Shown here piece after piece: positions 34,294 to 48,436 of a stretch of DNA of 64,000 nucleotides. Made by a program: the position numbers and the translations under genes. Each line of letters opens with the position of its first letter. Position 1 is the first letter of the stretch. Origin of the DNA: Gulosibacter macacae (lineage in GTDB: Bacteria > Actinomycetota > Actinomycetes > Actinomycetales > Microbacteriaceae); the NCBI RefSeq assembly GCF_003865375.1, contig NZ_RQVS01000007.1, positions 62,001-126,000 of the forward strand, written 5' to 3'. A model generated the notes under the pieces. The model made no database searches. It was given only the letters and a program-made list of their open reading frames with translations, and was not told the origin of the DNA.

Positions 34294-36645
34294 TTACCGT
34301 CGAGCCGCAGCCGCCCGCGCGTACGCATCCAGGTGCAATTGAGCGCAGCGCTCCCAGGTGAATTCCGCCGCGCGCGCCAAGCCAGCCGCACGTAGGCGAT
34401 CTCGTTCATCGTCGTTTGTAATGAGTTCTTCAAGTGCGTCCGCGAGCGCCTTCGGGTTCGGCTGGGCATAGACCACCGCATCCCCACCGACTTCGGGAAG
34501 GGCCGTAAAGCGGGTAGTGACCACGGGCGCGCCGCTGGACATTGCCTCGAGTACGGGAAGACCGAACCCCTCGGCAATTGACGGATAACAGAATGCGACC
34601 GCTCCCCCAAGCAACGCCCGCAATTGCTCGAGCGGCAGGTAACCAAGTTCGCGCACACCGCTGAGCGGATCGGCCGCGGCCTTGTCGAGCAACTCCGCAG
34701 CCTCTTCATCCCAACCGCGCTGGCCCGAGAGCAAGAGCAGCGGCGCTTCGTCACCGAGTCGCTCGCGCAAGATGCCGTGTGCGCGAATCAGTTGCGCAAC
34801 CTGTTTGCGCGGCTCGATTGTGCCGAGAAAAGCGATGTAGGGACGATCACCAAGGTCGTGCGCGTCGCGGAACGCGGCGATCTCATCGGCACTTGGTTCA
34901 TGGAAGATTTCGCGGTCGACGCCATGCAGAGCAACCGCGATCGCGCGACGAGGCTTACCGGCATGCGCTTCGATTTCGCTGGCGGTGGCAGCCGATGGGG
35001 CGATGAGCGTGACGTTCGCCCGCACCCCCTCGCGGATCCAGCGACGGAAGAACTCGCGCTTGACCTTGGTGTGCGCATCCGGGTCGCTGAAGAAGGTGGC
35101 GTCGTGCACCGTCACCACACGCGCCAGCGGAGTTGCACGCGGGAAGGTGTAGTGGGGCGAGTGGATGACTTCGGCTTGCAGATCGGATGCGAGGCGGAGT
35201 AGGCCGGTTTGCTCCCAACCGAAGCGCAGACCCTTCTTACCGATGAGGGCGGGTGCTGCGTGGATCTCGGCATTCGGGGCGAGGGCGCGGAAGTGTTCGA
35301 TGTGCTCCGGGCGAGCGACGAGGAGGGGCTTTTCGCCAAGTGCGTGGAGGCCGCTCACGAGGCCTTCGAGGTAGCGTCCGACGCCGCCGAGCTGGGTAGG
35401 GATGGAGGTGAGGTCGATGAGGGTGCGGGGGTTGCGGGTGGGTCGAGGGGTGGTCTCGATACGGCCCTGCGGGCCTACTCCACCAACCAGTGAGCCCTGC
35501 GGGCCTACTCGACCAGCCAGTGGGTCGTTCGGGGCTACTCGACCAGCAACATTTGGCTCCGGCGCGGCTCGACCGGCGGCGGGCGGGAATGGCGTGAGGC
35601 CGGCGAGGGCACCGCGGGCGCGGGCGCGGCCGAGCTGGCGTTCGTCGGCGCTCTTGCGGGGATCAAGTGAAGTGACGGCACCCTTTACGGCACCGACCGC
35701 CGTGCGGACCGTTGCCTCGGCGCGCATCTTGGCGGGGCCATTGCGACGCGCGTTCCAGGCGCGGTTGCGGGCGTTCCACTCGACAAAGCGAGGGCTCGTG
35801 GTGCCAGAGCTCGAGGCATGGGCATGAATCGAGATGGCTTCGGGTACGTATTCGATCGACCAGCCAGCTTGGCGCAGGCGCATCGAGAGGTCGGTGTCTT
35901 CGTAGTACATGAAGTACGACTCATCGAAACCACCAAGCCGTTCAACTGCACTGGCTCGCAGGGCACAGGCACCGCCGTGGAAGCCGTAGACGGCGCGAGG
36001 GAACTCGGTGCCGACCGGAGCGAGCCAACCGCGGTCGAGGCCGTTGCCTGAACGCGTGAGTTGGTTGCCGGTGGAATTGAGGAGTTGTTGGCCTTGTTCG
36101 CCGGGGGTGGTGCGGCGCCAGGTGCTGCCGTCGTGGGCGGTGAAGATGGTTTCGGGGGTGGGGTTGGGGTCTCGATACGCTTCGCTACTCGACCGACCAA
36201 AGGAGGAGTGAGCTTCGCTGCCCTTCGAGTGCCTCAGGGCACCGCTCGACCAACCAACCTTGGTGAACTCGCCTGCGAGTCGAACCTGGGCGGTGACGGC
36301 GCCGAGCGAGTCGTCGCGATCGAGCGCCGAGACCAGCGCGGCGATGAAGCCAGGCTGATAGTCCGCATCCTGATTGAGCACGAGGTATGCGTCGGCGGCG
36401 TACGCGGCCATCGCGCGGTTGGCGGCGGCGCCATAGCCGAGGTTCTCAACTAGCTCGAGCACAGTGACTTCTGGCACCTCGGCGCGAATGAGCGTCACGG
36501 TGTCGTCTGTCGAACCGTTGTCGACAGCCACGATGCGGAGGTCGGCATCGACCTCTTGTGCGGCAAGGGTTCGCAGGGCAGCGACAGCTTCGTCACCGCC
36601 GTTCCACACGACGACGATTGCGGTGACGCTTGTGATGCCGGTCAT
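34294..36645 (-). CDS. GT2-GT4 fusion glycosyltransferase with repeat-derived linker
   Basis: 783 residues from ATG 36645 (MTGITSVTAIVVVWNG). N-terminal GT2 domain about 1-330: VAVDNGSTDDT, ENLGYGAAANRAM, LVLNQDADY, GGFDESYFMYYEDTDLSMRL (rhamnosyltransferase-like). C-terminal GT4 domain about 400-783: TQLGGVGRYLEG, HDATFFSDPD, FLGTIEPRKQ, PSIAEGFGLPVLEAMSSGAP (donor-binding E-E). Between them, residues 356-395 are four decapeptide repeats encoded by the dispersed CGAGTAG element; another insertion of the same kind lies at about 129-159 inside the GT2 domain. Adds two successive sugars, one probably rhamnose; inferred. The frame stays open for 32 codons upstream of the chosen start, through a 23-base repeat array. 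Confidence 0.86.
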   Translation of the reverse strand: MTGITSVTAIVVVWNGGDEAVAALRTLAAQEVDADLRIVAVDNGSTDDTVTLIRAEVPEVTVLELVENLGYGAAANRAMAAYAADAYLVLNQDADYQPGFIAALVSALDRDDSLGAVTAQVRLAGEFTKVGWSSGALRHSKGSEAHSSFGRSSSEAYRDPNPTPETIFTAHDGSTWRRTTPGEQGQQLLNSTGNQLTRSGNGLDRGWLAPVGTEFPRAVYGFHGGACALRASAVERLGGFDESYFMYYEDTDLSMRLRQAGWSIEYVPEAISIHAHASSSGTTSPRFVEWNARNRAWNARRNGPAKMRAEATVRTAVGAVKGAVTSLDPRKSADERQLGRARARGALAGLTPFPPAAGRAAPEPNVAGRVAPNDPLAGRVGPQGSLVGGVGPQGRIETTPRPTRNPRTLIDLTSIPTQLGGVGRYLEGLVSGLHALGEKPLLVARPEHIEHFRALAPNAEIHAAPALIGKKGLRFGWEQTGLLRLASDLQAEVIHSPHYTFPRATPLARVVTVHDATFFSDPDAHTKVKREFFRRWIREGVRANVTLIAPSAATASEIEAHAGKPRRAIAVALHGVDREIFHEPSADEIAAFRDAHDLGDRPYIAFLGTIEPRKQVAQLIRAHGILRERLGDEAPLLLLSGQRGWDEEAAELLDKAAADPLSGVRELGYLPLEQLRALLGGAVAFCYPSIAEGFGLPVLEAMSSGAPVVTTRFTALPEVGGDAVVYAQPNPKALADALEELITNDDERDRLRAAGLARAAEFTWERCAQLHLDAYARAAAARR
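35452..35580 (-). repeat. Dispersed CGAGTAG repeat inside the GT2-GT4 gene (linker copy)
   Basis: Plus-strand GGTCTCGATACGG followed by CTACTCCACCAACCAG at 35452-35490 is a nearly full repeat unit. Units of exactly 30 bases follow (35491-35520, 35521-35550, 35551-35580), each ending in CTCGACC plus A/G and GC. Because 30 is a multiple of three they encode decapeptides (LVGGVGPQGR, LAGRVGPQGS, VAGRVAPNDP, AAGRAAPEPN). Confidence 0.85.
36168..36260 (-). repeat. Dispersed repeats inside the GT2 domain coding region
   Basis: Contains a CGAGTAG-family half unit (36168-36199, GGTCTCGATACGCTTCGCTA then CTCGACCGACC), a small hairpin of a second family (36219-36241, arms TGCCCT/AGGGCA) and a further CTCGACCAACCAACC end. 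All are read in frame as residues about 129-159 of the GT2-GT4 protein. Confidence 0.8.
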
Positions 36646-36673: not shown

Positions 36674-36784
36674 TGTGCTTCGAGAGCCTCAGCACACGAT
36701 AGGGCCGAGCCACAGCACACGATAGGGCCGAGCCTCAGCACACGATAGGGCCGAGCCTCAGCACACGATGGGGCCGAGCCTCAG
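36674..36784. repeat. Hairpin element followed by four 23-base tandem repeats
   Basis: 36674-36696 is a hairpin (arms TGTGCT/AGCACA, loop TCGAGAGCCTC). From 36693 a 23-base unit beginning CACACGATAGGGCCGAGCC is repeated four times to 36784, with single-base differences. The unit looks like the hairpin's right half plus ACGATAGGGC. No spacers, so not CRISPR. The array fills the gap between the divergent GT2-GT4 and rmlB genes. Confidence 0.85.
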
Positions 36785-36790
36785 CGCAAG

Positions 36791-36868: not shown

Positions 36869-37855
36869 ATGAAACTGCTCGTAACCGGTGCGGCCGGCTT
36901 CATCGGCTCGAACTTCGTTCGTCGCGCACTCGCAGATGAGCTTCCCGGTGTCGAAGGCGCCGAGATCATCGTGCTCGACTCGCTCACCTACTCGGGCAAC
37001 GAAGAGAACCTCGCCCCGATCGCCGACTCCCCCCGGTACGAGTTCGTCCACGGCGACATCCGCGACGCTGAACTCCTCGACGAGCTCATGCCGCGCGTCG
37101 ACGGCGTCATCCACTTTGCCGCAGAATCGCACGTCGACCGCTCGGTGCTCGACGCATCCATCTTCGTTGAAACCAACGTGCTCGGCACCCAGCGCCTCCT
37201 CGACGCCGCACTCAAGCACGGCATCGGCCGCTTCGTACACGTGTCGACCGACGAGGTCTACGGCTCCATCGAAGAGGGCGAATGGACCGAAGAATTCCCG
37301 CTCGAGCCGAACTCCCCCTACGCCGCATCCAAGGCCGGCAGTGACCTCATCGCCCGCAGCTACCACCGCACCCACGGCCTCGACGTCGTGATCACGCGCT
37401 GCTCGAACAACTACGGGCCCTACCACTTCCCCGAAAAGCTCATCCCGCTGTTCGTCACCAACCTCATGGACGACAAGCACGTGCCGCTCTACGGCACCGG
37501 CGAGAACGTGCGCGACTGGCTGCACGTCGACGACCACTGCCGCGGCATCGCCCTCGTGTTCGCGAAGGGCCGCTCGGGCGAGGTCTACAACATCGGTGGC
37601 GGCACCCAGCTCACCAACGTCGAGATCACCGAGAAGATCCTCGAACTCATGGGCAAGGACTGGTCGTACGTCGACCACGTCGAAGACCGCAAGGGCCACG
37701 ACCTGCGCTACTGCGTCGACATCACCAAGATCGAAACCGAGCTCGGCTACACCCCGCAGGTGCCGTTCGAGCAGGGCCTCGCCGAGGTCGTGCAGTGGTA
37801 CCGCGACAACCGCGCCTGGTGGGAGCCGCTCAAGGAGCGGGCCGCGCTCGCATGA
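36869..37855 (+). CDS. rmlB: dTDP-glucose 4,6-dehydratase
   Basis: 328 residues, NAD-dependent SDR enzyme for step two of dTDP-rhamnose synthesis. KLLVTGAAGFIGSNFVRRAL (NAD site), HFAAESHVDRS, STDEVYGS (catalytic Asp/Glu) and YAASKAGSD (Tyr/Lys) are complete, with RCSNNYGPYHFPEKLIPL near 180. Good GGAGG ribosome site. First gene of rmlB-rmlD-GT4, coupled to rmlD by ATGA overlap. GC-rich, unlike the acyltransferase genes to its left. Confidence 0.97.
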   Translation: MKLLVTGAAGFIGSNFVRRALADELPGVEGAEIIVLDSLTYSGNEENLAPIADSPRYEFVHGDIRDAELLDELMPRVDGVIHFAAESHVDRSVLDASIFVETNVLGTQRLLDAALKHGIGRFVHVSTDEVYGSIEEGEWTEEFPLEPNSPYAASKAGSDLIARSYHRTHGLDVVITRCSNNYGPYHFPEKLIPLFVTNLMDDKHVPLYGTGENVRDWLHVDDHCRGIALVFAKGRSGEVYNIGGGTQLTNVEITEKILELMGKDWSYVDHVEDRKGHDLRYCVDITKIETELGYTPQVPFEQGLAEVVQWYRDNRAWWEPLKERAALA

Positions 37856-39867: not shown

Positions 39868-40009
39868 GGTCTCGATACGCCTCCGCTGCGCTGCGGCTAC
39901 TCGACCACCCAGTGTTGTTTGGTTGGTCGAGTAGGCCGAAGGCCGTATCGAGACCCCGCCTGCAAGTCTTCCCTGGTTGGTCGAGTAGGCCGAAGGCCGT
40001 ATCGAGACC
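39868..40009. repeat. Three CGAGTAG-family repeats between GT4 and LCP genes
   Basis: 39868-39912 is an inverted-orientation unit (GGTCTCGATACG ... GGCTACTCGACCACCCAG). 39921-39955 and 39975-40009 are identical 35-base direct units, GGTTGGTCGAGTAGG then CCGAAGGCCGTATCGAGACC. They sit in a head-to-head layout, so the first can pair with either of the others. The third ends 8 bases from the LCP stop, suggesting a role as a two-way terminator. Confidence 0.88.
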
Positions 40010-41987: not shown

Positions 41988-42094
41988 GGTCTCGATACGC
42001 TTCGCTACTCGACCGACCAGGGAAAACCTGGTTGGTCGAGTAGATGGAGCCGCCGGGTCTCGATCTGTCGCTTCGCTCCTACTCGACCAACCAG
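41988..42094. repeat. CGAGTAG-family repeats between VOC and purE genes
   Basis: A half unit (41988-42019), a direct-strand half unit GGTTGGTCGAGTAG (42030-42043) and a longer unit (42056-42094, ending TACTCGACCAACCAG). CTGGTTGG and CCAACCAG ends allow hairpins. Starts 3 bases after the VOC stop and ends 13 bases before the purE stop. Confidence 0.85.
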
Positions 42095-44569: not shown

Positions 44570-44695
44570 GGTCTCGATACGCTGCGCTACTCGACCAGCC
44601 AGAAAAACTGGGTGGTCGAGTAGGAGCGGAACGACAGATCGAGACCACAGGGCTGCGCGAGGGGTCTCGATACGCTGCGCTACTCGACCAGCCAG
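44570..44695. repeat. Three CGAGTAG-family repeats between GtrA and PH-domain genes
   Basis: Inverted unit 44570-44602 (GGTCTCGATACGCTGCG then CTACTCGACCAGCCAG), direct unit 44610-44646 (GGGTGGTCGAGTAGGAGCGG ... GATCGAGACCAC), and a second inverted unit 44663-44695 identical to the first over 33 bases. Lies between two convergent genes, as in most other copies. Confidence 0.87.
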
Positions 44696-48197: not shown

Positions 48198-48239
48198 CTG
48201 GCTGTGCGTGCCGCCGTGGTGCCGTGCGCCACACCACCT

Positions 48240-48277
48240 GGGTGGTCGAGTAGGAGCGAAGCGACGGATCGAGGCCA
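48240..48277. repeat. CGAGTAG-family repeat after accE
   Basis: GGGTGGTCGAGTAGGAGCGA then AGCGACGGATCGAGGCCAC, a full unit with one change in the GAGACC end. A related half unit in the other orientation lies at 48394-48424 (GGTCGATTCGC then TTCGCTACTCGACCAACCAG). Confidence 0.82.
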
Positions 48278-48365: not shown

Positions 48366-48436
48366 CGATCGCGCTGGTGTCGATTCGGCGGGAGGTCGAT
48401 TCGCTTCGCTACTCGACCAACCAGGGAGCGTCCCCA

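Follow-up and report, generated by a model that had tools for sequence, protein, structure and literature searches.

Gulosibacter macacae encodes a 783-residue protein in which a GT2 and a GT4 glycosyltransferase are joined through a linker that is partly written by a dispersed palindromic repeat, here called R1. We consider it very probable that the fusion is ancestral, that R1 multiplied later and that its in-frame copies were tolerated, probably as a passive spacer. The gene lies in a 64,000-nucleotide stretch of the genome (the window), to which the positions in Table 1 refer. Some features of the linker had been noticed by a model working from the letters alone (the sequence-only reading), which proposed that an intergenic copy of the repeat was the route by which two neighboring glycosyltransferase genes fused, and that it was later expanded in tandem into a linker. 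The fusion of neighbors is supported by our comparisons; the role given to the repeat is not.

Table 1. Positions in the window of the fused gene, its domains and the repeats discussed in the text
Feature	Positions	Strand	Evidence
GT2-GT4 fused glycosyltransferase gene, 783 aa	34294..36645	-	translation; Pfam; fused orthologues in eight congeners
GT4 domain, residues 408-783	34297..35424	-	Pfam PF13439, PF00534; alignment A2
Composite repeat, linker residues 356-398: one complete hairpin unit, then tandem half-units	35452..35580	+	TRF, covariance model, codon map
Complete repeat unit GGTCTCGATACG-GCCCTGCGGGC-CTACTCCACCAACCA	35452..35489	+	covariance model R1, 54 bits, E 3.8e-12 (unit itself among the 22 sequences that built the model)
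Two further 30-bp half-units, coding LAGRVGPQGS and VAGRVAPNDP	35491..35550	+	TRF; codon map
Degenerate fourth unit, coding AAGRAAPEPN	35551..35580	+	codon map; weak similarity, outside TRF array
GT2 domain, approximately residues 1-300	35746..36645	-	Pfam PF00535/PF13641; alignment A2
Second intragenic insertion, GT2 half, approximately residues 130-159	36168..36259	+	R1 covariance match and second dispersed repeat
Intergenic R1 copies, three units	39868..40009	+, -, -	covariance model
Intergenic R1 copies, two units	41988..42093	+	covariance model
Intergenic R1 copies, three units	44570..44694	+, -, +	covariance model
Intergenic R1 copy	48239..48276	-	covariance model
Intergenic R1 copy, absent from the earlier list	48394..48423	+	covariance model, 32.3 bits

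Pfam matches on the protein fall at residues 9-136 for GT2 and from 420 to 755 for GT4/GT1 models. An AlphaFold model, built on seven sequences and having a mean pLDDT of 71.7, places a helix at residues 333-350 and the first GT4 strand at residue 408; a low-confidence stretch (residues 353-401, pLDDT <50) coincides with the repeat-encoded linker residues 356-398. The interdomain linker is thus predicted to be probably disordered, although with only seven sequences in the model low pLDDT suggests disorder and may have other causes. Confidence is also low at residues 126-224, a segment that includes the second insertion. Between the start of the gene and a divergent gene at 36869 there is a 23-bp tandem array of GAGCCTCAGCACACGATAGGGCC (36684-36785; 4.4 copies and 96% matches by TRF), for which the rest of the genome has just two weak matches.

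The observations of the sequence-only reading on the linker itself stand. Pfam and the codon map confirm that the stretch is in frame and lies between the catalytic domains, where residues 356-398 read AAGRAAPEPN / VAGRVAPNDP / LAGRVGPQGS / LVGGVGPQGR / IET, giving the four 30-base units and decapeptides that had been described. The TAG of the repeat is avoided, as had been claimed, the frame used being GGA/CGA-GTA. The array detected by TRF has a 30-bp period and spans 35464-35547 (2.8 copies, 87% matches); the fourth unit is weak, with approximately 16 of its 30 bases matching the neighboring unit and only the GGTCGA core clearly kept. Likewise borne out is the reading of the linker DNA as one copy of a dispersed, mostly intergenic repeat, since the R1 covariance model recovers all of the intergenic copies previously listed. 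Linkers of the GT2-GT4 gene are GC-rich and fast evolving, and might come to resemble a repeat merely by chance low complexity; the probability of that explanation here is negligible. The complete unit scores 54 bits (E 3.8e-12) under R1, a model that it helped to build as one of 22 sequences; BLAST matches of the linker stretch elsewhere in the genome are other copies of the repeat; and a reversed control had no matches to the repeat pattern.

R1 has the layout GGTCTCGATACG, a variable stem-loop, then CTACTCGACCAACCA. As a gapped pattern it has 62 exact matches genome-wide, against none in the reversed control, and the covariance model finds at least 150 copies in the G. macacae genome. The 22 variants align as a single bulged hairpin with 96.1% of cells paired. 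Two-sided changes occur at six of the 12 stem pairs; the covariation score was not reached in any of 500 shuffles, and covariation was lost when the pairing partner was slid. R1 thereby fits the description of a short (20-40 bp) dispersed, high-copy palindrome with a covarying stem; its units are 32-44 nt long and often compounded. On the reverse strand it reads GGTCGAGTAG, most of whose bases are paired inside the covarying stem, so that GTAG is internal to the unit; an unpaired GTAG (or near variant) at the hairpin end was not found. Searches for a RAYT (Y1_Tnp, PF01797) gave nothing in this genome or in the relatives that carry R1 by the strict pattern, while the same search had matches in five of 14 control genomes. 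Because it lacks both the unpaired tag and a PF01797 match, we call R1 REP-like. No target-site duplication or transposase was identified for it, and a search of papers for its letters matched solely unrelated ones. In another genus of the family, a single 4.6-Mb genome (G054) has 627 strict R1 copies.

Gene calls around 96 R1 sites were made with a simple codon-usage score. A classification was possible for 86 sites: 49 are flanked by convergent, 32 by tandem and five by divergent gene pairs, and the median distances to the ends of convergent genes are 16-17 bases. Many of the copies, though not all, form inverted doublets separated by a short spacer (e.g. L010, L013 and L030). Tandem half-units are present at 24 of the 96 sites (the linker and 23 others), with periods from 23 to 44 bases, and three units at six sites, five of them outside the GT2-GT4 linker. 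The tandem expansion that had been proposed as part of making the linker is therefore not peculiar to it: such an array is normal for R1 and may have arrived ready-made. In the linker the period is exactly 30, which fits the reading frame.

Comparison within the genus used one genome per species. The same GT2-GT4 fusion is present in eight congeneric genomes, among them Gulosibacter hominis, Gulosibacter sp. 10, [Zimmermannella] faecalis, [Z.] bifida, G. sediminis and a MAG, and none of the eight has an R1 copy by the strict pattern or by the covariance model at the thresholds used. Alignment with these homologues, which the sequence-only reading had suggested as a check, shows the fusion kept with other linkers: the compared span is 44 to 108 residues in the congeners versus 116 here, and the sequences differ. 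In G. sediminis the fused gene (L063/L100) appears frame-shifted near the GT4 C-terminus, beside an undetermined base; a flaw in the assembly is the probable cause.

In three other genera of the family the GT2 and GT4 relatives are separate neighboring genes on one strand, which indicates that the two did fuse. The sequence-only reading had looked to related genomes for split halves with the repeat between them; the split genes exist, and the covariance model finds no R1-type repeat between them. A 22-bit covariance match inside a GT4 gene of another genus (L055) was rejected, as it reads like ordinary coding sequence. Three loci with long open frames (L049, L056 and L059) were also rejected as fusions, the GT2 similarity being in another frame or absent.

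Fusion without R1 in eight congeners, together with split genes lacking R1, argues that fusion came first and the repeat later. The simplest order that these genomes suggest would be neighboring genes, then fusion, then repeat. Two genomes of the same genus (G003 and G004), in which no fused GT2-GT4 gene was detected, contain R1-like repeats of a divergent family (115 and 63 matches, respectively). Given that family, some form of R1 may predate the genus and have been lost from eight species.

The sequence-only reading overlooked a second in-frame insertion, which lies within the GT2 half of the G. macacae fused gene. It combines an R1 unit (36168-36199, 47.4 bits) with a copy of another dispersed repeat, CTTCGAGNGCCTCAGGGCACCGCTCGA (36223-36249). 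The latter occurs 19 times in this genome and is absent from ten congeners; it forms mosaics with R1 and resembles the CCCTTCGAC repeat of the closest congener (G002). By the codon map the frame of the insertion differs from that of the linker copy. The segment between AQV.L and HDG has 55 residues here versus 22-30 in the eight fused congeners, and alignment A2 has a 24-column gap opposite the insertion, which is absent from all eight. For this GT2 loop the empty site in the congeners is clean.

Altogether four of the 96 sites, spread over three genes, are in-frame R1 copies in conserved genes. The other two genes are those for the 2-oxoacid dehydrogenase E2 component (dihydrolipoyl acyltransferase; L030, G000:C5:64536-64623), where R1 lies between the lipoyl and E3-binding domains, and TsaE (L080, G000:C32:180295-180378), where it is in a loop near the C-terminal end. 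Each of the two insertions is an inverted doublet, its halves separated by a short spacer. E2 and TsaE are present without R1 in congeners, where the linkers vary too, so that the empty site is less exact. The same element is thus found both between genes and in frame in conserved genes whose orthologues are without it. Eight further candidate intragenic copies (L185, L197, L023, L028, L081, L189, L029 and L012) lay in frames without a Pfam match; these frames are probably spurious or antisense, and the copies were discarded.

R1 is not alone in the interdomain linker. The closest congener has a different dispersed repeat, CCCTTCGACRGGCTCAGGG, with 45 core matches in its genome versus none here, and its linker holds CCCTTCGACGGGCTCGGGGCCC, one mismatch from the CCCTTCGACRGGCTCAGGG consensus, where 0.01 chance matches would be expected in the locus. 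The linker of G. sediminis holds CCCTTCGACAAGCTCAGGAA (the repeat is also given as CCCTTCGACAAGCTCAGG), one of three core matches in that genome; it is a relative of the G002 repeat and not of R1. Dispersed repeats from at least two different families thus occupy the GT2-GT4 linker in three of the nine fused species. Tolerance of a permissive segment would explain these repeats, and selection for them is possible.

The history that we favor would run as follows. In an ancestral Gulosibacter, neighboring GT2 and then GT4 genes would have been joined into one gene. Later, in this lineage, REP-like bulged hairpins would have grown in number to at least 150, most of them directly 3′ of genes. In-frame copies would have been tolerated in loops and linkers, namely the GT2-GT4 linker, the GT2 loop (as a two-family mosaic), the E2 linker and the TsaE loop; R1 can be read through in coding sequence because most of its frames have no stop. 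The inserted peptide would probably be a passive spacer, neither the creator of the fusion nor required for it. Event order, tolerance as the reason for the copies and neutrality of the insertions are what we infer from the genomes compared.

The original proposal, that separate genes fused via an intergenic copy of the repeat which then expanded in tandem into a linker, draws on the separate neighboring genes of other genera and on R1 indeed sitting at the domain junction. We judge it highly unlikely: eight congeners are fused with no R1 copy anywhere in their genomes, no R1-type repeat lies between the split genes, tandem half-units are common across the genome, and the second insertion, far from the junction, is evidence that R1 does insert into an existing gene. 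Another explanation makes the linker a favored site, where repeats were gained several times and kept by selection for a longer or more flexible linker. It would account for three of the nine fused species having linker repeats that differ in frame and come from more than one family, and for a linker span ranging from 44 to 116 residues. We consider it quite improbable, as the fused gene persists in species whose spans are 44-60 residues, so that linker length is not essential; other insertions are in loops without a linker role (TsaE and the GT2 loop), and a merely permissive target would give the same pattern. Also improbable, in our estimation, is that the linker is a recurrent landing site filled by each species' own palindrome, through which selection tunes linker length. 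We retain an ancestral fusion with later, tolerated insertions as the preferred account.

R1 is apparently a REP-like family in Microbacteriaceae that had not been described before; it writes itself into proteins, and no RAYT was found. The case cautions against taking a repeat found at a domain junction as evidence that it brought about the fusion. The question it bears on is whether mobile repeats in disordered protein segments are mere passengers or a source of usable linkers, for which it offers a well-resolved case, with the fusion apparently preceding the repeat and with dispersed repeats found in this linker in three species.

In-frame palindromic repeats in bacterial genes are already known, from Rickettsia (PMC2229807) and from REP-rich genomes (PMC3733652). 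Rickettsia palindromic elements (RPE; Ogata et al. 2000, reviewed in PMC2229807) are 105-146 bp long and are found between genes as well as in frame in conserved genes, where they are tolerated. R1 is like them in behavior, but its units are 32-44 bp, often compounded, and its host is of another phylum. REPINs are REP doublets that form hairpins and are tied to a RAYT gene (PMC3116915); R1 shares with them its many inverted doublets with a short spacer, while no RAYT was found in its genome.

A further close parallel is with intragenic REPs, the GTAG- and CGTC-tagged palindromes of Di Nocera et al. 2013 (PMC3733652). According to that study, REPs are dispersed short hairpins whose stems show compensatory changes, and most lie near the 3′ ends of convergent or tandem genes; some are in frame within genes, coding 20-30 or more residues, with double insertions in one gene; flexible linkers and loops were suggested as neutral sites for them; and different REPs occupy approximately the same recB site in two Xanthomonas species. 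Its main text makes no mention of Actinobacteria, Clavibacter, Leifsonia or Arthrobacter. R1 resembles these REPs in its hairpins, stem covariation, placement at gene ends, in-frame copies and double insertion in one gene. It differs in that the GTAG-tagged REPs have an unpaired terminal tag, whereas R1 has GTAG inside the stem, no RAYT was found and the host belongs to Microbacteriaceae. The new elements here are R1 itself, the host group in which it is found and an order of events that could be resolved.
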